Shown piece by piece: positions 8,397 through 23,363 of a stretch of DNA of 23,363 nt. Both the position numbers and the translations under genes were made by a program. This DNA is from a virus: positions 1 through 23,363 of IMG/VR virus record IMGVR_UViG_3300047564_001000; one strand, written 5' to 3'. The stretch's first letter is position 1; each line of letters opens with the position of its first letter. The notes beneath the pieces are model-generated. The model made no database searches. It saw only the letters and a program-made list of their open reading frames with translations, and was not told where the DNA came from.

Positions 8397-11300
8397 TTAC
8401 GCTCCTGACAACTCACCTGTGTTCAAGATACGAACTGGGATATAGATGAATTCAGCAGCCTTGACAGGCTCAACTGCAACATCGATCCACAATTCGTTGC
8501 GATCTATTCTAGCAGGAGTGTTGTTACTCTCATCACAGACTACCAAGTAGTCATAGATGCCTCTCTTAGAAACAAGATCGACCATCAATGATTGAACAAC
8601 ACCTGCGATCTGCTGGCGTGTCAATGCATCGTTAGGTTCGAACACGAATGGTCTTGCGGCAATCGTCAATTGACGACGGATATAAGCAACAAGTCTTGCA
8701 ACGTTTGTTCTATCCAATGCGCTCTGACTATTGAATGATGTCTTGTTACCATAGTTCAACAAGCCGTTACCAGTGAAGAACACTAGTGGGTTGATGAAGT
8801 TGATGTATAGAACATCACGTATACCGATACGTGTCTTGATGACTTGGAATTCACCAGTTACACGATTCAAATAACCGATGTTCAATGCGTTGTCGATGAT
8901 ACCACGGCGAGTACCTGCTGCCGCTAACCAAGGATAAGCGACTGTATCGTTACGCAAGAATGTACGCAACATCATGTGTGATGCTGGAACTGCTACTTCG
9001 TTACCACTCAAGTCTAGTGCGATACCACTTGGGTAGAACAAGCCAAGATAAGTGTTGCGTGTTACGCAGCCATCTTCGCCTGTGCTTGTAGCGCCTGCGG
9101 CATTAGTTGCCCATGCTTGAATTGCTGTTGCATCTTCTGGTAGACCCATTGGGGTGTCACCTAAGATGTAACCTGTCTCACCACGGTCAGCATTCAATAC
9201 GACCATGTTTGGCTGACACTCTGGATAATTAGGTGTTGCCATCAAGTTGAAGAAGTTATCTTCATCACGTATTGACAAGTTAGTATCAATTACTGAACGT
9301 AATGATGCTACTACCATTGCTCTCTGAGCCTTGCGACCCATGTAAGGAGCACCGTTTGATTGTAAGCCGCTTGCGCTTACCCATGTGCTACGTATAGTTG
9401 GTATTGTCTCATCAGGGAAACTCAATGAATTGAAGTAATTGTTTCTCCACTGCTTGACGTTATAACCACTTCTACGTGTATTGAATAACAACATACCCAC
9501 TGGGTAGTTGCTTGCACTTGGCGCATCTAAGTCGAGATTGTTGCTTACTAACAATGACTTGATTGTCGGGATAGGATCATTTGCAGGATTGATTGCATTT
9601 TGATTGCTTGACCAACGTGCGTCTGCAAACACTATGCCATTCGATGCTGTCTGATCAGTCTTATCAATCAACACCCATTGATCTTCACCGTCAACCATTT
9701 GCCAACGGCTGATAGTTGGATAATTTTCTAGATCAGCGGTGCTTACCCATAGATCACCGTATGCAAGTGCTGTACCATCACTTTGAGTTGTTGGTATGCT
9801 TGCGCTTATGATAGGACCATTTGGATCAGTTGCGTTAGAGCCACTTGGTAGTGGGAAGCCGTTGCTGTTGAAGTTGACATTACGATAACCCTTCCAACCT
9901 GCTGTTGTGTTTACCATGATGTCGCATTCGTCAGTCACGCTATAGAACCAGTTTGTACCGTTCGCTGGTAGTTCTGTTGGAGCACCTTCGTTTGCTGTGT
10001 ATTCAAACTCTACGAAATTACTTAATAGAAGATCCAAGTTGAATACTGGTACTTGACTAATATCAGCGATTGCAAGATGTGTTGCACCACCGCTACCATT
10101 AATAGCACCTACTACGAATACGCAATCATTTGCTCCGTTTGTACCACCTAATACTGAACCCTGAATAGTGATAGTATCACCCACTGCATATCCAGTACCA
10201 GTTGCGGCGATGCTTAACAATTGATAACCATTACCGCTCGCTCTGATTGACATCTGGCATCCTACACCTGCACCTGAAGTACTGCTTTGTGGAACACCTG
10301 AGAAGCCAGTTGATATTACGTTGCCGTATCTGCAACCAAGTGTGGCACCTGCTACGAAACCTGCGTCTGCTAATAGACCACTTGATATACCTGTTGTAGC
10401 ATTGATATCGTTAAGTCTAATAGAACCACCTAGTGTATGTGTCAACTGTATAGAACCATCAGTTGCAAGAGCTGCTTCTGTATAAGGAACTGCTGCCGCT
10501 TGGAATGCAGTCACGAAATCAGTAGCATCACTATTATCTGCTAGAGACATAGTGTAAGGACCGCTCCATGTAGAACTATTTGGAGTAGTGACATAAATCG
10601 ATAGAGTTGTGTTTCCACCTGTCCAGTTCAATGCTGTTTCGGTACCTGTTACTACTGTTGCACCTGTTGCTAGTCTTTTCCATAGATAGATAGGAGCATC
10701 TTTATATTCACCATCATAGAAATACTGAGCATAAACAGTTCCGGCTGGGATAGCCTGACCACCTGTTGCATCTAGTTGCGCAATTGCAGTCGGATCATTT
10801 TGTGCTAATGATACATTCTTAATGATCCATGCATTTGCAACGCTGTCATATTCTTTTACTGAAGGATTGTAACCATTACCTGAGCTGCCCATCTTCAACC
10901 ATACTGAACCAGTTGGTCTTGGAGTTGTTTGTCCAACTCCCCATAGTGGCATACCTGATGAAGTTGCAAATGTTACATGAGGCGCATTGTACTGAGCAGC
11001 CGGTATACCTAAATCAGTCAATACAGTACCTGTACCGGCTGTTATGGTAATTTTTGTTACATACTCGTCTGAAGCAAATAACTGTAAACGACCAGTATCA
11101 CCTGATGCTTTCAAGTGCTGCCAACCCAATGCATTGATTGCTGTTGCTACGCCAACAACGTTATTTGAACCTAGACCAGGTACTGTAATAACTGCTGAAG
11201 TTGTTGCATCAGGATCGTTATTAACTAATGTTACGGTGAAAGTATTACCTGCAGATAATGCAGGATTGCTATTAGTACCTGTTATTGTTGGAACGCTCAT

Positions 11301-11960
11301 CATCCAATCATCGCTTTCTACAGATACCCAAGCATTATTTGAGTTCTTGTAGAAATATTGTGATGCGGCGCTAGGGTTATAACTTTGCTGTAATGCTATC
11401 ACAGCATAATCACCTATACTACCTATGTATCCTGCCGGAAGTCCAGCATCTACATTGTCTGCATCTGTGATGACGATTGGTAACTTGTTAGTGAACAACT
11501 GAGTAGTTGCGTTCCATTCATAGATACCCCATGCTGTAGTAGTAGTATCTAACCAATATGCGCCGTCTTCTGGCTCACCGGTTGGGCGACCTGTCTGACC
11601 TACTAAACTTGCTAAGTCGATGTCTGCTCTCAAGCAGTATACGCGGTTAGTTACACCTAATGCTGAGTATGCGGCTAATAGACCATACTCGTTTAATTCA
11701 TAACCTTGAATTGGAGTACCGTCTGTAGTCTCATAGAAGAATGGTGTACCATATAATGTTACAAGATCGCGCTGACTTGTTACTTGGAATAACTTGCCTG
11801 CATTAGCGGCAGTAGTACCCTGCGCAATGCCTGTACCATTTGGATTCGCTTTGTCTTGTGCAGTTGCAAAGACTACTAGCGGAACTGATGCTGTCGGGGC
11901 TGGAAGATACTGACTTTGGTCAACGATTGTAACTTCTACGCCGGGTGATGTAAGTGCCAT
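8397..11960 (-). CDS. 18: Tail sheath protein gp18-like, giant form with large insertion
   Basis: 1187 residues against 659 in T4 gp18. The N-terminus (L-T-S-P-G-V-E-V, 3-10, then a sheath-type domain to about 120) and the C-terminus are canonical. The C-terminal third has R-T-F-L-R-N-D-T-V-A-Y-P-W-L-A-A-A-G-T-R-R-G, the N-P-L-V-F-F-T-G-N-G-L-L strand, and the closing I-D-R-N-E-L-W-I-D-V-A-V-E-P-V-K-A-A-E-F-I-Y-I-P-V-R-I typical of contractile sheaths. Between about 120 and 770 lies an insertion of beta-rich modules (see findings). The sheath contracts around the tube to drive it through the cell envelope. I chose ATG 11960 (MALTSPGVEV) over an in-frame ATG at 11999 because AGGAAA lies 7-12 nt upstream and family members start this way. 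The gene is monocistronic: a hairpin and a new late box follow it. Confidence 0.93.
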   Translation of the reverse strand: MALTSPGVEVTIVDQSQYLPAPTASVPLVVFATAQDKANPNGTGIAQGTTAANAGKLFQVTSQRDLVTLYGTPFFYETTDGTPIQGYELNEYGLLAAYSALGVTNRVYCLRADIDLASLVGQTGRPTGEPEDGAYWLDTTTTAWGIYEWNATTQLFTNKLPIVITDADNVDAGLPAGYIGSIGDYAVIALQQSYNPSAASQYFYKNSNNAWVSVESDDWMMSVPTITGTNSNPALSAGNTFTVTLVNNDPDATTSAVITVPGLGSNNVVGVATAINALGWQHLKASGDTGRLQLFASDEYVTKITITAGTGTVLTDLGIPAAQYNAPHVTFATSSGMPLWGVGQTTPRPTGSVWLKMGSSGNGYNPSVKEYDSVANAWIIKNVSLAQNDPTAIAQLDATGGQAIPAGTVYAQYFYDGEYKDAPIYLWKRLATGATVVTGTETALNWTGGNTTLSIYVTTPNSSTWSGPYTMSLADNSDATDFVTAFQAAAVPYTEAALATDGSIQLTHTLGGSIRLNDINATTGISSGLLADAGFVAGATLGCRYGNVISTGFSGVPQSSTSGAGVGCQMSIRASGNGYQLLSIAATGTGYAVGDTITIQGSVLGGTNGANDCVFVVGAINGSGGATHLAIADISQVPVFNLDLLLSNFVEFEYTANEGAPTELPANGTNWFYSVTDECDIMVNTTAGWKGYRNVNFNSNGFPLPSGSNATDPNGPIISASIPTTQSDGTALAYGDLWVSTADLENYPTISRWQMVDGEDQWVLIDKTDQTASNGIVFADARWSSNQNAINPANDPIPTIKSLLVSNNLDLDAPSASNYPVGMLLFNTRRSGYNVKQWRNNYFNSLSFPDETIPTIRSTWVSASGLQSNGAPYMGRKAQRAMVVASLRSVIDTNLSIRDEDNFFNLMATPNYPECQPNMVVLNADRGETGYILGDTPMGLPEDATAIQAWATNAAGATSTGEDGCVTRNTYLGLFYPSGIALDLSGNEVAVPASHMMLRTFLRNDTVAYPWLAAAGTRRGIIDNALNIGYLNRVTGEFQVIKTRIGIRDVLYINFINPLVFFTGNGLLNYGNKTSFNSQSALDRTNVARLVAYIRRQLTIAARPFVFEPNDALTRQQIAGVVQSLMVDLVSKRGIYDYLVVCDESNNTPARIDRNELWIDVAVEPVKAAEFIYIPVRILNTGELSGA

Positions 11961-12016
11961 TTTTTTGTTTCCTATAATGTTATATTTTGAGGGTAACAAC
12001 CCTAAATGCTTACTAT

Positions 12017-12084: not shown

Positions 12085-12438
12085 ATGGCCATCATAAGAC
12101 CCATATGTAAAGAGTGTAACAAGAACTACCGTGCTGTGAATTATATAAGAGACGGTGTCACCCATTACCGTAGCATATGTGATGATTGCGGCAAGAAGAA
12201 ACCTAAGGCTAAATCTAAAAGAACATTATGGGAAAAGGCAGGTTATAAGAAAAAACCTGTATGTGACATATGTGGATTTAGGTCACTATATCCAAGTCAA
12301 ATGACCGTGTTTCATATAGACGGAGACCTTAGAAATACTAACTTTAGCAATCTAAGGTCTATATGTCTTAATTGCGTCGAGGTCGTCAAACGCAAAGAGG
12401 TGACTTGGAAGCGCGGTGATTTACAAGTTGATTATTGA
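12085..12438 (+). CDS. Small double zinc-finger / HNH-like protein
   Basis: 117 residues with two four-cysteine sites: C8-x2-C11 with C32-x2-C35, and C60-x2-C63 with C94-x2-C97. The second encloses an HNH-like core, F-H-I-D-G-D-x3-N-x3-N-L (H77, D79, N84, N89), which resembles the H-H-I-D-G-N...N-x4-N-L core of HNH endonucleases. The usual first His of the HH pair is Phe76, and the His normally after the last Cys pair is Val98, so catalysis is uncertain. Many Lys residues suggest nucleic acid binding. It is the only plus-strand gene in this part, lies between sheath and dNMP kinase, and its 3' end overlaps the kinase 3' end by 18 bp. It could be a homing-type or packaging-linked nuclease, or a non-catalytic DNA-binding protein. 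Confidence 0.7.
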   Translation: MAIIRPICKECNKNYRAVNYIRDGVTHYRSICDDCGKKKPKAKSKRTLWEKAGYKKKPVCDICGFRSLYPSQMTVFHIDGDLRNTNFSNLRSICLNCVEVVKRKEVTWKRGDLQVDY

Positions 12439-13053
12439 TTCAACTTTCTTATGTAGATCATCGATAGTACCATCATTAACGATGTGATGGTCATATTCAA
12501 GTCCTACGCTACTATATTCGCTGGCATGCACATTGTAGGACTGAAGTGTTTTCATCGCTTCCTCATACCCAGCAGTATAATACCCTTTAGAAAACGCAAT
12601 CGCGGCATCATGCCAAGGTGGATTTTCTCCCCTATGTACTCTGATAGTTACCCCGCCCATTCTTTTGATAGACTTCAATTCATTGGGGAATCTGCAATCG
12701 CTGATGACGATATCATCTTTTGCTGTTCGTAGTTGATTCTCAATACTAGCGATCCAGATGTCATCATGGAATGCCCTGCGTCCTACTTCAGTGCCCCATT
12801 GTTGTAATACCCATCTTGGGGTCAAGTGTTTGATCTCTAATCTTTCTGCCCACCAAGGATCTATGGTATCTCGCCACTCGCGGCTATATTTTGTTGTACC
12901 TTCTAATAGATCACGATCCCAATTAAAAATACTTGCTACCGCATCTTTTAATGGGCCAGCGAAACTAGTTCGCTTGAAGCCTTTGAATGTGATCAGATAA
13001 TCTGCGATTGTATCTTTACCGCTACCTATGAATCCTGCAACTCCAACAATCAT
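12421..13053 (-). CDS. 1: Deoxynucleoside monophosphate kinase (T4 gene 1-like)
   Basis: 210 residues. The Walker A loop is G7-F-I-G-S-G-K13-D14-T15, in the GxxGxGKD form typical of T4 gp1-like dNMP kinases. It is followed by S-F-A-G-P-L-K-D-A-V-A and F-N-W-D-R-D-L-L-E-G, then S-R-E-W-R, W-W-A-E-R-L, T-P-R-W-V-L-Q-Q-W-G-T-E-V-G-R and I-W-I-A-S-I, and a D-C-R-F-P-N-E core strand loop (about 118-123). The enzyme phosphorylates dNMPs to dNDPs in the cytoplasm to feed phage DNA synthesis. It has its own sigma70-like promoter rather than a late box, consistent with early or middle expression. It converges on the HNH gene, and the two 3' ends share a small inverted repeat. Confidence 0.9.
   Translation of the reverse strand: MIVGVAGFIGSGKDTIADYLITFKGFKRTSFAGPLKDAVASIFNWDRDLLEGTTKYSREWRDTIDPWWAERLEIKHLTPRWVLQQWGTEVGRRAFHDDIWIASIENQLRTAKDDIVISDCRFPNELKSIKRMGGVTIRVHRGENPPWHDAAIAFSKGYYTAGYEEAMKTLQSYNVHASEYSSVGLEYDHHIVNDGTIDDLHKKVESIINL
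12425..12446. terminator. Inverted repeat at the convergent 3' ends (weak bidirectional terminator)
   Basis: AAGTTGA (12425-12431) pairs with TCAACTT (12440-12446), with an 8-nt loop that contains the HNH stop codon. A short T-rich stretch follows on the plus strand only, so efficiency is doubtful. Confidence 0.4.
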
Positions 13054-13948: not shown

Positions 13949-14548
13949 TCAACTATAACTAAAAAGGCTGTTGAACACCGGAGCGGTATTTGCCATGTTG
14001 ATGAAACGCTTCATACCCCGATGGTCGATACGGAATGCGTAACTTGAACCATCCTTGTACTCTAAAAATGCCAATCTATCATCACCCTTGATAGTGTAAT
14101 CCTTGAGAATATCACCATTACTTATTAGATGAAAAATTCTAAGTTTACTTCTAGCATCTTCATATGAACGCTCAAGTTCCCTGTCAATGTCAGGATCATC
14201 ACGGAAATGTATGACGACCTGTTCAGATACTTTTCCTGTTTTTGTATCAATAGTGACTCTGAACTGACTTTGTAATTTTTGTCTAAAACTAGTGTCTTTC
14301 CATGATGTATTCAGGATATCATCATGTGTCATTGTGCCCACAGTATGAGGAGAATCAGTAGAACTTTTTCTAGTTTTGATTTCTAACTGTAAGTCAGGTA
14401 AGTCGATGACACCTGAAGATACTTCAAATCCCTGTCTAATCAATTCTTGTTCAACTGCCCTTCCCATGCTACCATCATTACAATTTTTAGCATAAGGAAA
14501 ATACAGTTGACTAAGATCAACTTTTAGCGTTTTGACACGTATAGTCAC
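13949..14548 (-). CDS. MutH/Sau3AI-like PD-(D/E)XK endonuclease
   Basis: 199 residues. Hand alignment with E. coli MutH gives: D-G-S-M-G-R-A-V-E33 against K-G-W-I-G-V-L-L-E56; D49-x6-E56-I-K58 against D70-x6-E77-L-K79 with identical spacing; and W83...T-S-F-R-Q-K91-L against W...T-S-H-V-R-H-K116-L. All four MutH catalytic residues (D70, E77, K79, K116) thus have counterparts, as does the helix glutamate E56. Family members cut at GATC: MutH nicks unmethylated strands in mismatch repair, and Sau3AI is a restriction enzyme. The start is GTG, overlapping the TGA of the MazG-like gene by 4 nt (GTGA), with AGGTGAT upstream, so translation is probably coupled. It is the last gene of a sigma70-driven cassette. 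It could degrade host DNA, act in recombination or repair, or exclude competitors. Substrate is not known. Confidence 0.75.
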   Translation of the reverse strand: MTIRVKTLKVDLSQLYFPYAKNCNDGSMGRAVEQELIRQGFEVSSGVIDLPDLQLEIKTRKSSTDSPHTVGTMTHDDILNTSWKDTSFRQKLQSQFRVTIDTKTGKVSEQVVIHFRDDPDIDRELERSYEDARSKLRIFHLISNGDILKDYTIKGDDRLAFLEYKDGSSYAFRIDHRGMKRFINMANTAPVFNSLFSYS

Positions 14549-14997
14549 AAATCACCTGCTTTCCGATTCTCACTATGGAATACGTCAAAGTGTCCGCCCG
14601 GGTAACGGGCCTGCAACTTCTTGACATTCTCGGCTACTACATCGTTAGGATCAAGATTCAATGCACGACATGCATTTACCCAATACCACATGATATCACC
14701 AAGTTCACGCTTCATATGAAACAATGTTTCATGATTAAGTGGCTTGCCCTGAAAGGTAATCTTCTTTACGATCTCTTGGAATTCACCGGTCTCACTACCT
14801 AGACCGATAGCGCCACATAGCAATAATGGAACGTTGACATCTGGACCATGCATGTATTCACCATTGGGTCCATATGCTTCATAGTTACCGTCAAGCCTAT
14901 CTAACTGATTCATGAACGTAGTAAGATCATGACTTTCTTTGCTAGTTACAGCCTGTACGAATTCCATATACTTGTTCAAATCAACTTGGTTACTCAT
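14545..14997 (-). CDS. mazG: MazG-like nucleotide pyrophosphohydrolase
   Basis: 150 residues from ATG 14997. The metal-binding pattern of the all-alpha NTP pyrophosphohydrolases is present: E69-T-G-E72 in one helix and E98-L-G-D101 in the next (R-E-L-G-D-I-M-W-Y-W), followed by a V-A-E-N-V-K-K-L-Q-A-R-Y-P-G-G-H-F end typical of phage MazG-like proteins. These enzymes hydrolyse (d)NTPs to monophosphates, and phage versions have been linked to nucleotide recycling or stress-nucleotide control. I moved the start from an upstream in-frame ATG (15051) to 14997: GAGGAG lies 7-12 nt before it and the product then begins MSNQVDLNKY, a normal N-terminus. It overlaps the upstream 66-residue gene by 8 nt and the downstream nuclease by 4 nt. 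Confidence 0.82.
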   Translation of the reverse strand: MSNQVDLNKYMEFVQAVTSKESHDLTTFMNQLDRLDGNYEAYGPNGEYMHGPDVNVPLLLCGAIGLGSETGEFQEIVKKITFQGKPLNHETLFHMKRELGDIMWYWVNACRALNLDPNDVVAENVKKLQARYPGGHFDVFHSENRKAGDL

Positions 14998-15190
14998 TTG
15001 ATACTCCTCTAAACATTTCTTTACGACCTTCTTCGCCCAATATATGATCAAAGATTTCTCTGGTCCTTTGCAACATAGCGCAGGCTAGCATCAATTGATC
15101 TTGTGGGTTACTTGTGCTTGTGATAGCAGTATCTATCACAGTCATCATAGTTTCCATTCTTTTTTCTAGGGGGTCGAATGAGTTTGTCAT
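14990..15190 (-). CDS. Small helical protein, unknown
   Basis: 66 residues, apparently all helical (M-T-V-I-D-T-A-I, then D-Q-L-M-L-A-C-A-M-L-Q-R-T-R-E-I-F-D-H-I-L) with an acidic/basic end. Its ATG overlaps the upstream stop (TAATG) with AAGG upstream, and its stop overlaps the MazG-like start by 8 nt. The tight overlaps on both sides support real translation. I recognise no family. It may be a partner or regulator of a neighbouring enzyme, but that is inference from position only. Confidence 0.7.
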   Translation of the reverse strand: MTNSFDPLEKRMETMMTVIDTAITSTSNPQDQLMLACAMLQRTREIFDHILGEEGRKEMFRGVSNE

Positions 15191-18145: not shown

Positions 18146-19522
18146 ATGGCACAATTTTTTTATGACAATCAGATACGCAGATTCTTATTGCAATTTGCAA
18201 AAATCTTTAGCAACTGGTATGTGACTAAAGGCAAAGACCCTAACGGCAATGATATATTAGTTCGTGTGCCTATCATGTATGGAGATCAAAGCAGACAAGT
18301 ATCTACTGTCATCGCTAATAACAGCGCAAGCAATTTGCCTAGTGCACCATTGATCACATATTGGATCTCGGGATTAGAATACGATCAGCGTAGAATGCAA
18401 GAACCTACCTTTATTGATAAGATAAATGTTCGCCAACGTGCATACAATCAGGAAACACAATCATATGAAGAGACACAGGGACAAGCATTTACAATAGAAA
18501 GATTAATGCCTGTACCTTATACATTGAGAATACAATTAGATATATGGACTACTAACTATAATCAAAAATTAGAAATAGTAGAACAGTTAGGTACACTATT
18601 CAATCCTGCATTGGAAATACAAAGCACTGATAATTTTGTTGACTGGACATCGTTAACGGTTGTATATCAAGATGGTCTTACATTCAGTAGCCGTACTATA
18701 CCTCAAGGCACAGGTAATCCTATAGATGTATTGACTTGGAAGTTTTATATGCCTATATGGATAAGCACATCAACTAAACTCAAGAAGATGGGCGTCATCA
18801 ATAAGATCATTGCTAGCATTTACAAAGGCAGCGCATTACAAGATATACAAGATGAAGATTTATTATTAGGCACAAGACAAAAGATAACACCATATGGCTA
18901 TAAGTTATTATTGATAGGTAATCGATTACAATTATTACCGGCTAATGAAGCATTCTATCCACCTAATACTGATCTGGATGATCCTACACCGCCTAACACT
19001 AATCTATACTGGTCTAGTTTGTTAAACGTATATGGTAAATTCAAGCCCGGCATCAGTCAGATATGGTTGCAGAATCCATATATGGAGGATGATATCGTAG
19101 GAACTATAGTTCCGGATCCTACTGACGATAGGATATTGATATATGATATCGACCCTGATACATTACCACAAAACACATTGAATCCTGTTGATAGCGTGAT
19201 AAACCCGCAACTTCAGGGACCTAACGCAGGCTTGCCCGGTCCCATAAACGGACGCAGATATCTCATCGTTGAAGATATAGGTAGTCCAGGAAGTCCCACA
19301 GTAAGTTGGGGTAACTTAGTCGCAAAGGCTAACGACATCATAGAATATGATGCCGGAACAAGTTCATGGTTCGTATCATTTGATGCAGAACAATCCACAT
19401 CTGTACAGTATGTCACCAATCTAACCACAAATATCCAATATCGATATGTAGAGCAAGAAGGTCAATGGATGAAATCGTATGAAGGTTGGTACGATCAGGG
19501 CGACTATAGTGTTGTAATTTGA
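18146..19522 (+). CDS. 15: Tail sheath stabiliser gp15-like, extended
   Basis: 458 residues against 272 in T4 gp15. The N-terminus F-F-Y-D-N-Q-I-R-R-F...F-S-N-W...I-L-V-R-V-P-I-M-Y-G aligns well with T4 gp15 (Y-F-Y-N-S-S-F-R-R-Y...F-S-N-I...F-I-R-V-P-I-T-Y). P-V-P-Y-T-L-R-I-Q-L-D-I-W-T-T-N-Y-N-Q-K-L-E-I-V-E-Q (about 126-152) matches the T4 I-Y-E-L-S-I-F-T-R-Y-E-D-D-M-F-Q-I-V-E-Q. gp15 caps the tail and joins it to the neck. The extra C-terminal part (about 255-458) includes R-R-Y-L-I-V-E-D and A-N-D-I-I-E-Y-D...W-F-V-S-F, a beta module probably exposed on the virion. It follows the gp14-like gene by 9 nt with only a weak AAGAG ribosome site, so translation is probably coupled. Confidence 0.88.
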   Translation: MAQFFYDNQIRRFLLQFAKIFSNWYVTKGKDPNGNDILVRVPIMYGDQSRQVSTVIANNSASNLPSAPLITYWISGLEYDQRRMQEPTFIDKINVRQRAYNQETQSYEETQGQAFTIERLMPVPYTLRIQLDIWTTNYNQKLEIVEQLGTLFNPALEIQSTDNFVDWTSLTVVYQDGLTFSSRTIPQGTGNPIDVLTWKFYMPIWISTSTKLKKMGVINKIIASIYKGSALQDIQDEDLLLGTRQKITPYGYKLLLIGNRLQLLPANEAFYPPNTDLDDPTPPNTNLYWSSLLNVYGKFKPGISQIWLQNPYMEDDIVGTIVPDPTDDRILIYDIDPDTLPQNTLNPVDSVINPQLQGPNAGLPGPINGRRYLIVEDIGSPGSPTVSWGNLVAKANDIIEYDAGTSSWFVSFDAEQSTSVQYVTNLTTNIQYRYVEQEGQWMKSYEGWYDQGDYSVVI

Positions 19523-19546: not shown

Positions 19547-19960
19547 ATGAAAAACACTTCGGCTGGCATATTCTTTTATTGCACTACTACGGATAGATTC
19601 TTATATCTTATGCGTAGTGATGCCAATTTTGCTTGGGGTGTGCCTGGTGGGAAGATTGAAGAGAATGAGACCTTGTTAGAAGGTTTACAACGCGAGTGTA
19701 TGGAAGAAGTTAACTTTTGGCCTATGAATCCAAAACTCATACCTATACAAAAATTCGTGAATAATACTTTCACGTACCATACATTCTTTTGTGCTGTAGA
19801 TGAAGAATTCGTTCCTTATCTTAATGATGAGCATGTTGGATACGCTTGGATAGGTAATAATCAACACCCTAAGCCAATGCATCCTGGCTTGTTCAGCACG
19901 ATCAACATCGATATTGTCAAAGAAAAATTAGAAATATTGACAAATAAAAACGGGGCCTAA
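19547..19960 (+). CDS. Nudix hydrolase
   Basis: 137 residues. The Nudix box is G-x5-E-x7-R-E-C-x-E-E-V-N-F (about 35-57), the GX5EX7REUXEEXGU signature with Asn in place of the last Gly. The preceding A-W-G-V-P-G-G-K is the usual substrate-side loop. Nudix enzymes hydrolyse nucleoside diphosphates linked to another group (T4 NudE acts on ADP-ribose and related nucleotides); the substrate here cannot be told. The gene has its own extended -10 promoter and no Shine-Dalgarno, unlike the late gp14-gp15 pair before it. Its stop codon lies in the loop of the terminator, so the hairpin encodes the last residues. An early or middle nucleotide-metabolism role is likely. Confidence 0.9.
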   Translation: MKNTSAGIFFYCTTTDRFLYLMRSDANFAWGVPGGKIEENETLLEGLQRECMEEVNFWPMNPKLIPIQKFVNNTFTYHTFFCAVDEEFVPYLNDEHVGYAWIGNNQHPKPMHPGLFSTINIDIVKEKLEILTNKNGA

Positions 19961-20323: not shown

Positions 20324-21328
20324 TTAACCTGCGTTGATAGTAACGATAGGATATGGCTGACCACCATAAGTGTTGGCAGCATAGGCAGTATTGAACGTAC
20401 CGAATGCTGGTGAACTGTTATTGATGTTTGCAGTTTCATTTGGCAATGCTGTCTCGCCAGATGTTGCTGTAAAGATTTCTACAGTATGATCACTTAGTGA
20501 TTGTACCAATGTAGTTGCTGTGTTTGCATATGTAGCAATGATTGACATTGTGTTTGGTAACAATGCGGCATTTGCTAGATTTGCTGTATAGCAAGGACCT
20601 ACTAATCCGCTAGTTGAACCCTTTACAAGATACTTCTGCTTGCCTTTTTGACGAACAATGTAACCTGCTTCGTTCAATGCGAACACGAATGCACCATCAT
20701 AATCTTCGTTGCTATTTGCAAGTAGATCGAGAGTAGTGTCATCTGTGATTGTATCTACGAAACCTAATAAATTTCCTTCAGCGTCAGTAATGCACTCACC
20801 GCCTGATAGTTCAGTAGTGAATAATGTGCCTGTACCAGTTACAGTAGTGCTTGATGTGCTTGCGCTGATTGTACCTGTACCTGCCTGACCGATTGCTACT
20901 TGGCAAAGTACTTGATTACCATAGATTGCTGTGTTACCACCAACTACTGAGTAAGTATTTGCGTTTGTTGCTGGGTAGCCTGCGCCACTGAGTGGGTTGT
21001 TGAAGTATGCATCAACGACACCTACTGAGGCTGCTACAGTTACAGGACCTTCGTCTGCTAATGTGAATGCAGTATAAGTTGGATTTGCTGATAATTGTGT
21101 TGCTGAAACAGTAAATGTGCTGTTAGCACCTGCGTTTACAACTGATAGAATCCAATAAGTAGTACCTGCAACTAAATTACCTACGTTAGTTGCTGGAATG
21201 AATGGCATGCCGGCAATGATACCTAGGTTTGTGAAGTTTGCGTTAGTAGTTACTAATCCTGTTGCGGCTGTAGTATCAGTAATTGTGACAACAGCCTGTG
21301 CTTTTGCGATTTTAAGTGGACGTCCCAT
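20324..21328 (-). CDS. Beta-rich virion structural protein
   Basis: 334 residues, rich in Thr, Ala, Gly, Asn and Val, with almost no charged helices. Three regions are visible: residues about 20-110, with G-N-L-V-A-G-T-T-Y-W-I and F-T-V-S-A-T-Q, a module type found in phage fibre and decoration proteins; residues about 149-217, with T-V-T-G-T-G-T-L-F-T-T-E-L and the D-T-I-T-D-D-T-T-L strand, shared with the next protein upstream; and a C-terminal region with the K-G-K-Q-K-Y-L-V-K-G strand. There is no signal peptide. AGGAG lies about 8 nt before the ATG, and a late box lies 81 nt upstream with a structured leader between. A role as head or tail decoration protein is inferred from composition and late expression. 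Confidence 0.75.
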   Translation of the reverse strand: MGRPLKIAKAQAVVTITDTTAATGLVTTNANFTNLGIIAGMPFIPATNVGNLVAGTTYWILSVVNAGANSTFTVSATQLSANPTYTAFTLADEGPVTVAASVGVVDAYFNNPLSGAGYPATNANTYSVVGGNTAIYGNQVLCQVAIGQAGTGTISASTSSTTVTGTGTLFTTELSGGECITDAEGNLLGFVDTITDDTTLDLLANSNEDYDGAFVFALNEAGYIVRQKGKQKYLVKGSTSGLVGPCYTANLANAALLPNTMSIIATYANTATTLVQSLSDHTVEIFTATSGETALPNETANINNSSPAFGTFNTAYAANTYGGQPYPIVTINAG

Positions 21329-21444: not shown

Positions 21445-22002
21445 TTATGATAGAGGTCCGCCGGCTGCTGGAGTTGCTAATACTCCACTTGTGCCGGTGT
21501 TGGGATGGGGAGCACCCAATTCAGTGATACTGAATTCATGTGGGCTGCCGCCGCCTATGTCTAAGAATGATACAACATTACCTTGACCCACGATGATACT
21601 ATTTTGAACAGTGTTTGCAGGGATTATTGTTGAGTTAGCATCTGCTACCGTGTATGCTACACCATATGGATTATAACGTGCAGTCGCGCCTGATATTGCT
21701 ACTGCGGCGTTAGCAGTCAATGTTAGACTTGTATTGTTAGCAATAGATTGAACAATACCTACAGTAGTACCTGCTGTGTTTCCTATCCAAGCACCGATGT
21801 TTAATTCTGATAAGAATGCTGTACCTGATCCAGTAACAGTATTGCTGTTTGTAGCACAAGTTACAGTACCAGTTACCGCAACATTGGGGAAACTGGTAGT
21901 ATATTGAATTGGTGAAGCCGTAGTCGCAATTCTGACTTTATCAGTTGCTATGTTTGCTGATGCTGTGGCTGAACCACTTGCTGTATATACGTATGATGCC
22001 AT
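21445..22002 (-). CDS. Small beta-rich virion structural protein sharing a module with its neighbour
   Basis: 185 residues, Ala/Thr/Gly/Asn-rich. Residues about 43-110 (G-T-V-T-C-A-T-N-S-N-T-V-T-G-S-G-T-A-F-L-S-E-L...I-A-N-N-T-S-L-T-L) repeat the module of the downstream 334-residue protein. The remainder has a strand-rich region (I-I-P-A-N-T-V, V-V-S-F-L-D-I-G-G-G) and a Gly/Pro/Thr-rich tail. It is probably exposed on the capsid or tail. The ATG has AGGA 11-14 nt upstream and a late box 18 nt upstream, directly after the stop of the protease gene. I do not recognise a named family. Confidence 0.75.
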   Translation of the reverse strand: MASYVYTASGSATASANIATDKVRIATTASPIQYTTSFPNVAVTGTVTCATNSNTVTGSGTAFLSELNIGAWIGNTAGTTVGIVQSIANNTSLTLTANAAVAISGATARYNPYGVAYTVADANSTIIPANTVQNSIIVGQGNVVSFLDIGGGSPHEFSITELGAPHPNTGTSGVLATPAAGGPLS

Positions 22003-22028: not shown

Positions 22029-23363
22029 TTAGGGTATATTTTTCCAAGTCAGCCCTGGACCTAAAGTAAAATTACCTGCAGTGTTCCCTGTAGTTACTGG
22101 AAGCACAAGGTTATTGTACAACACTCTGCTAGTACCGCCCATCAAACTGTTTACATTTTGCCAATCTGGGGAGTTAGCACCAACCGGGTCGGGTCCTTGA
22201 TAAAAAGTTGTATCAGATTGTAAGGTCAGTGACTGCATCCAAGTTCTAACATTAGCATATGTCCATGATCTGTTAACTTGCATTTGTGTCGCTATCAATC
22301 CGGCTGCTACTGGACAGGCTGCGCTAGTACCACTGAATGATGTATCGTAAAATATAGGTTGTCCATATGCTGAATTTTGTCCTACTTGCACATCTATTAC
22401 ATTTGAATTTTCGTTGAGTGTAAATTCATATACCATGTTAGGGCTACCTTCTACTCCTGAGGTTGCATTAGTACCTTCCCAGCGTATTCTGAAAGTTCTA
22501 GTAGGAGCAGACCCGGATACGCCGTAATATATTCTCTGGCATGAAAAATCAAATCCAGCATATGCTTTGCTACCACAAAAAATTACACCAGGACCGGGAG
22601 AGTTAACATAACAATTGTTTGTAGTAGATGGTTCCACTCCGGATGAAGTTTGGAATTGTACATAACCGTTAGTTCCTACAAATATCGTGCTTATGTTTAC
22701 ATCTAGATATGTCATAGTGAACGGTAAATTAACAGTCCAGTAACCGTTGTTATTATCTCCGCCAGTTGGTGTAGCAAAAGGACCGGATAGACCTGAAGAT
22801 CCTAATATACTATTAGGGATAGTTGTGCAAGTGCCGGAGACAGTAACTCCGTCATATGACGTTGTTATTCTGTATCCTGTGTTAGGTATTGAATTGAAAG
22901 AAGTAAGTCCGGGTATCTGTGCAAAAGCACTACAGACTGATACCATACCAGTACTATATCCAGAGCCATATGTATCTGCTCTTCTATAAGTTGTGGCATA
23001 TGAATTATTTGATGTGAGTGTGCGGTTTGCAGGGGCGTAACAATCAGTACTTTCTCCCATTACACTGTAATCAACTTTTTGTTCTTTACCTGTGGAGTGC
23101 AAAAATGCATCCAATGCACCGATAGCCAGTACCGGGTATACTATCTCACTACCGCTAGTAAATCTTCCTATCTGCTGTGGAAATCCTCTGCGACTAGTTG
23201 TGTTATAGCAATCGACACCGAATGCTTGATGTATCGCAATTGAAAGTGGAGTGTCAGCATTATTAGACCAATAATTATTATAATCAGCGTTAGTATTTTT
23301 AACTATTTTTTGATTGCTATTGCCGGCGGCTGCGATAAAGATAACTCCTGAATTTACTAATTC
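22029..23363 (-). CDS. Subtilisin-like (S8) serine protease with an inserted fibre-type beta domain (5' end outside window)
   Basis: The frame is open to the right edge: 444 residues visible, with the N-terminus (including catalytic Asp and His) missing. The fragment begins with G-V-I-F-I-A-A-A-G-N15, the subtilase strand with the oxyanion Asn. S-F-S-G-T-S347-A-A-C-P-V-A-A-G is the catalytic Ser motif followed by its helix. The two are 332 residues apart, against 66 in subtilisin. The gap holds a beta domain (about 140-335) with T-I-F-V-G-T-N-G-Y-V-Q-F, Q-R-I-Y-Y-G, R-T-F-R-I-R-W-E-G and S-P-N-M-V-Y-E-F-T, a module I associate with T4-like phage fibre and structural proteins. T-D-C-Y-A-P-A-N-R before it corresponds to the subtilase pre-Ser loop. 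An in-frame TTG at 23114 is not the true start. It is likely a virion or fibre-borne protease acting on surface protein or on another fibre. Confidence 0.85.
   Translation of the reverse strand, partial: ELVNSGVIFIAAAGNSNQKIVKNTNADYNNYWSNNADTPLSIAIHQAFGVDCYNTTSRRGFPQQIGRFTSGSEIVYPVLAIGALDAFLHSTGKEQKVDYSVMGESTDCYAPANRTLTSNNSYATTYRRADTYGSGYSTGMVSVCSAFAQIPGLTSFNSIPNTGYRITTSYDGVTVSGTCTTIPNSILGSSGLSGPFATPTGGDNNNGYWTVNLPFTMTYLDVNISTIFVGTNGYVQFQTSSGVEPSTTNNCYVNSPGPGVIFCGSKAYAGFDFSCQRIYYGVSGSAPTRTFRIRWEGTNATSGVEGSPNMVYEFTLNENSNVIDVQVGQNSAYGQPIFYDTSFSGTSAACPVAAGLIATQMQVNRSWTYANVRTWMQSLTLQSDTTFYQGPDPVGANSPDWQNVNSLMGGTSRVLYNNLVLPVTTGNTAGNFTLGPGLTWKNIP

Follow-up and report, generated by a model that had tools for sequence, protein, structure and literature searches.

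The PA-domain subtilases, among them the C5a peptidases, lactococcal PrtP, plant SBT3 and Photobacterium P57, have an S8 catalytic domain that is interrupted near the side of the active site. In P57 the inserted PA domain binds the substrate collagen, and in the C5a peptidases the PA domain lies near the cleft (PMC5177683). S8 peptidases have also been reported from phages: T4-GC518 is known from cyanophages (Sullivan et al. 2010, PMC3037559), and PHROG 9158, T4-GC 292 of P-SSM2 and S-SSM7, and the "subtilisin-like serine protease" entries of S-WAM2 and S-H9-1 belong to the same family as the protein described here and share its tail-fibre/baseplate setting. Both the presence of S8 peptidases in cyanophages and the insertion of domains into subtilases are already known. 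The stretch of DNA analysed here, referred to as the window, comprises an entire virus record (23,363 bases), and the gene at one end of it is, by its sequence, the C-terminal part of an S8 subtilase. The features of this gene and its surroundings are as follows, where L003 denotes a full-length relative and its locus.

22029..23363, minus strand: C-terminal 444 residues of a predicted phage S8 subtilase (PF00082, phrog_9158; 66% identity to L003)
23319..23333, minus strand: oxyanion-hole Asn motif AAAGN, residues 11-15 (Asn codon 23319-23321; Asn invariant in 88 of 88 relatives)
22350..22967, minus strand: inserted all-beta module spanning residues 133-338 (about 206 residues), a distant relative of nidogen-like (NIDO) domains, delimited by alignment with uninserted relatives
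22311..22340, minus strand: catalytic Ser motif SFSGTSAACP, residues 342-351 (Ser codon 22323-22325; Ser invariant in 87 of 87 covering relatives)
21445..22002, minus strand: neighbouring gene of 185 aa with a partial match to the tail-fibre family phrog_1980
20324..21328, minus strand: neighbouring gene of 334 aa with a weak tail-fibre match (phrog_1980) and an L003 counterpart of 77% identity at the same place
18146..19522, plus strand: T4 gp15-type tail sheath stabiliser (PF16724, E = 1.1e-21; phrog_11196), 93% identical in L003

The frame at 22029-23363 stays open to the contig end and has no start, since the record ends there, and exact matching of its last 30 bases retrieved no overlapping viral contig that would supply the missing upstream half. 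The Pfam profile Peptidase_S8 (PF00082) matches the gene with an E value of 1.2e-8 (35.1 bits, cut-off 21.8) and the phrog_9158 profile with an E value of 3.8e-25. With both profile matches in hand and both motifs present at the places given for them, the original prediction of an S8 protease stands, as does its count of 332 residues between the oxyanion-hole Asn and the catalytic Ser. In the window gene the Asp and His fall beyond the contig end, and the intactness of the catalytic site is read from L003. This relative, 66% identical and 856 residues long, starts at an ATG and has the N-terminal region; its locus is nearly syntenic with the window, with neighbouring genes that are 77-93% identical except for the adjacent 185-aa gene, for which only short matching pieces are found. 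PF00082 scores 40.6 bits against L003, and phrog_9158 matches residues 3-533 with an E value of 3.2e-98. The protein has the Asp motif VVSDEATWYGHVEF, the His motif NHGTACSG, the Asn motif AAAGN and the Ser motif GGTSAACP. The upstream Asp and His motifs, whose absence the original prediction had named as evidence against itself, are present in L003, and in the 88-member family alignment the catalytic residues are invariant wherever they are covered (Asp 87/87, His 87/87, Asn 88/88 and Ser 87/87). An AlphaFold (AF2) model of L003, made from 36 sequences, has a pLDDT of 82 and a pTM of 0.68, and in a Foldseek comparison its top PDB matches are subtilisins, with fervidolysin as the best (E = 2e-9; TM up to 0.58 by target) and pro-subtilisin E and pro-Tk-subtilisin close behind. 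By eye, the N-terminus of L003 resembles an I9 propeptide, and the fold matches include pro-forms; since Pfam gives no I9 match in L003, only its appearance makes a propeptide likely. The window gene product is an intact-looking subtilase and a putative protease.

The spacing between the Asn and the Ser is bimodal among the 88 homologues, at either 117-152 or 314-347 residues. The original prediction had set the 332 residues of the window gene against a baseline of about 66, which is the spacing of classical subtilisin; the uninserted relatives in this family have 117-152, so that the true insert is about 200 residues long. It takes the place of a short loop that links the D-T-Y stretch to Y-D-x-x-F-x-G-T-S, and its edges are clear because about 60 aligned relatives lack it. 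By alignment, insert-free homologues are found in the isolated cyanophages S-SSM7, S-SCSM2R, Sf-FS3, S-TIM54 and S-T4. The extent first given for the insert, 22360-22946, had the right region but was slightly short of that obtained from the alignment. An AF2 model of the window insert alone has a pLDDT of 72 and a pTM of 0.74, and the order of strands is the same in this stand-alone model and within the L003 model, indicating that the insert behaves, as modelled, as a self-contained all-beta unit, in keeping with the earlier view of a lobe distinct from the protease. Two other accounts of the insert were rejected: a mere lengthening of a protease loop, as the same domain stands alone and occurs in unrelated proteins, and chance or misassembly, as in-frame insert-bearing homologues are found in more than 25 contigs.

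No credible match to the insert was obtained from Pfam or PHROGs, the PDB gave nothing credible by sequence or by fold, and 13 module sequences had no match to NIDO (PF06119) up to an E value of 1. The insert does match gp332 of the Synechococcus phage S-SRM01, which is 29% identical over 96% of the insert (E = 6e-7) and whose own gene is flanked by baseplate-wedge genes. Scanning with an alignment of modules gave 141 viral loci, of which 80 were kept; this sample consists of the best-scoring matches, and frequencies within it do not estimate abundance. Outside the subtilases the module is carried as a standalone protein of about 217-290 residues or makes up the C-terminal portion of long tail-like proteins, and further copies lie inside an RCC1 propeller protein (L149 3584-7447) and beside the glycine-rich fibre domain of another protein (L133 3080-8344). 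A structural search among viral models likewise returned S-SRM01 gp332 and a phage RCC1 protein. The original expectation that the insert would resemble phage structural proteins was borne out by gp332 and by the standalone, tail-like, RCC1 and glycine-rich fibre proteins. The module also had seven matches in bacterial genomes, two of which (L176 and L178) have NIDO above the Pfam cut-off, and an hhalign comparison of the phage modules with the bacterial domains gave a probability of 99.4% over about 120 positions. It is on this alignment that we call the insert NIDO-related, and it appears to be distantly related to nidogen-like domains via these intermediates.

Among the subtilases the module is found at four positions.

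Position A, before the catalytic Ser: the window
Position B, directly after the Asn motif: L055, L056, L064 and L070
Position C, between the SWG motif and the Asn: L134, L160 and L171
Position D, appended at the C-terminus: L138 and L164

In a tree of the protease core, built with the inserts cut out, the presence and absence of the module needs nine changes, and for position A alone at least 7 changes are forced by supported branches. The position-B clade is the sister of a position-A clade with 99% support, a pattern that would arise if the module had changed loops inside a single lineage. In both the core tree and the module tree, the B proteins are closest to the A proteins L020, L024, L027 and L147. 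The module tree places all protease-borne copies together with the RCC1 and glycine-rich copies in one supported group, where the C, D and RCC1 copies sit among the A copies; S-SRM01 gp332 falls in a different branch. The proteases of positions A and D are on average 26% identical in the core, and their modules are 45% identical on average and up to 60%; for L169 and L017 the module is 67% identical and the core 56%. Modules of up to 60% identity in proteases of 26% identity argue that the module is exchanged among phage proteases and tail proteins, as judged from these comparisons, and since the modules are more alike than their carriers, repeated loss alone does not easily explain the distribution, which transfer of the module can explain. 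Of the A/B pairs, 93% show lower conservation in the module than in the core. More tentatively, phages may carry a general, exchangeable NIDO-related recognition cassette that is spliced into protease loops and propellers and set beside fibre domains, so that specificity would evolve independently of the enzyme, much as in tail-fibre tips, though here within the fold of an enzyme.

Other domain arrangements were also seen among these proteins. In L134, L160 and L171 a further domain of about 110-130 residues is nested inside the module, which is itself nested in the protease, and L171 has two adjacent subtilase genes with the module in both. The subtilase of Marine virus AG-345-F15 (L004 4333-6792) has a different insert between the His and Asn motifs, which is cupredoxin-like by a weak Pfam match. 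In S-TIM54 (L008 5577-11996, UYE97265) a 2140-residue protein annotated as a virion structural protein has an esterase-like alpha/beta hydrolase domain followed by the subtilase and then by Ig domains, and the uninserted subtilases of L038, L039 and L041 continue at the C-terminus into extensions exceeding 1000 residues.

The tail sheath stabiliser gene at 18146..19522 marks a structural gene block in the window, and by this gene the phage of the window seems nearer to the Atu_ph07/Phosso/PA5oct group. The window also encodes a tail sheath protein (8397-11999, minus strand) that is unusually long at 1200 residues and matches known sheaths over 61-63% of its length, in two pieces, the best matches being those of the Pseudomonas phages Paride and PA5oct and the Sinorhizobium phage Phosso. 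Scattered among the structural genes are genes for a dNMP kinase, a MazG-like pyrophosphatase and a NUDIX hydrolase (12421-13053, 14545-15051 and 19547-19960). Among the relatives, the immediate upstream neighbours of the subtilase match the tail-fibre families phrog_6942 (10 of 22) and phrog_30742 (7 of 22), and the baseplate wedge-fibre connector phrog_677 is matched by 9 of 22 upstream and 7 of 23 downstream neighbours; the subtilase gene often overlaps or abuts the preceding large fibre gene. The P-SSM2 homologue, T4-GC 292 with a PF00082 match, lies among tail-fibre genes and has intact catalytic residues by reading, and the S-SSM7 homologue, also T4-GC 292 with PF00082, lies beside gp9. 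A more distant homologue, SSCSM1_228 of S-SCSM1 (23% identity, no insert), is annotated as "virion protein", has an S8 match (2.9e-26) as well as lectin-like domains, and contains all four catalytic residues by reading. In S-SCSM1, 45 virion proteins were detected by mass spectrometry, and ORF213 and ORF214 are among those named (PMC9602691). These two genes carry the same "virion protein" tag in the S-SCSM1 record and several other structural genes do not; from the two genes checked, we infer that the tag denotes detection by mass spectrometry. The tail-fibre and baseplate neighbours, together with the distant S-SCSM1 homologue, give indirect support for virion association.

The explanation that we favour, and consider rather probable, is a tail-mounted subtilase with an exchangeable NIDO-related recognition lobe beside the active-site cleft, which steers cleavage of a host surface or envelope protein. 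In classical subtilisin the primed side of the substrate cleft is lined by the residues that immediately precede the catalytic Ser, and a domain tethered a few residues upstream of the Ser would therefore, going by subtilisin numbering, sit at the active-site rim. The protease would be located on the tail fibre or baseplate with the module as a recognition lobe at this rim; the module may bind a surface protein or glycan and, once bound, would steer the protease, while the phage adsorbs, to cut a host surface or envelope protein. By analogy with the PA domain, binding of a surface component by the module should deliver a protein substrate to the cleft. A role in recognition fits the fast divergence of the module, its repeated exchange and its presence in other tail proteins better than a fixed connector does. 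The term "attachment module" in the original prediction was a guess at function, and substrate recognition would fit the precedent of the PA-domain subtilases better than a simple tether.

The main rival reading is that the subtilase processes fibres during assembly, maturing tail fibres or baseplate proteins in the infected cell while the module docks onto fibre subunits. The location of the gene directly beside fibre and baseplate genes, with its frequent overlap or abutment with the large fibre gene, is what such a protease would be expected to have, and the module does occur as a separate protein next to baseplate-wedge genes. The repeated gain and loss of the module, however, resembles recognition of varying outside targets more than conserved docking, as does its faster divergence relative to the protease in the A/B pairs; the distant S-SCSM1 homologue, going by its tag, stays in purified virions, and no cleaved fibre substrate is known. 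We regard assembly processing as unlikely on this evidence. Somewhat less probable again is docking in the sense of the original wording, in which the insert serves to hold the protease on the virion without a role in the choice of substrate. A shared structural connector could occur, as this module does, in several tail-type proteins, but it is missing from about 60 homologues with the same gene surroundings and from the virion-tagged S-SCSM1 homologue, so that virion mounting does not seem to need the module, and a conserved connector should occupy a single place, not several loops and the C-terminus. That the subtilase fold is a catalytically dead scaffold merely carrying binding domains, in line with the general reuse of enzyme folds as fibre scaffolds by phages and with the long extra loops of this protein relative to subtilisin, is very improbable given that all four catalytic residues are invariant in 87-88 divergent homologues and, by reading, are also retained in S-SCSM1 and P-SSM2.

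Most of the virion enzymes known to open a way to the host cell act on polysaccharide or peptidoglycan. If the reading of a tail-mounted subtilase with a recognition lobe is true, so widespread a protease of the tail region, with an inserted lobe that can be swapped, would suggest that protein surface layers are targeted. The family would also represent a natural domain-insertion experiment in which one fold takes one module at several loops, and closely related empty and filled versions of the protease allow direct comparison.

In the open-access literature on phage subtilases and phage nidogen-like domains we found no description of the domain or of its insertion into a phage protease, nor of one module placed at several loops of a single enzyme family. 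Compared with the NIDO domain (PF06119), the likeness of the insert runs through bacterial intermediates over about 120 positions, and the insert itself is without a Pfam match. S-SRM01 gp332 and similar standalone phage proteins contain a homologous module, but as a separate gene and with no protease. The cyanophage S8 peptidases have the same family and gene setting, but the isolates checked by alignment are without the insert, unlike the window. The PA-domain subtilases likewise have an S8 domain interrupted on the active-site side, but the phage insert is NIDO-related and not a PA domain, for which Pfam gives no match in the window gene, L003 or the inserts; it is found at three internal loops and at the C-terminus, and its carrier is a gene of the phage tail region.
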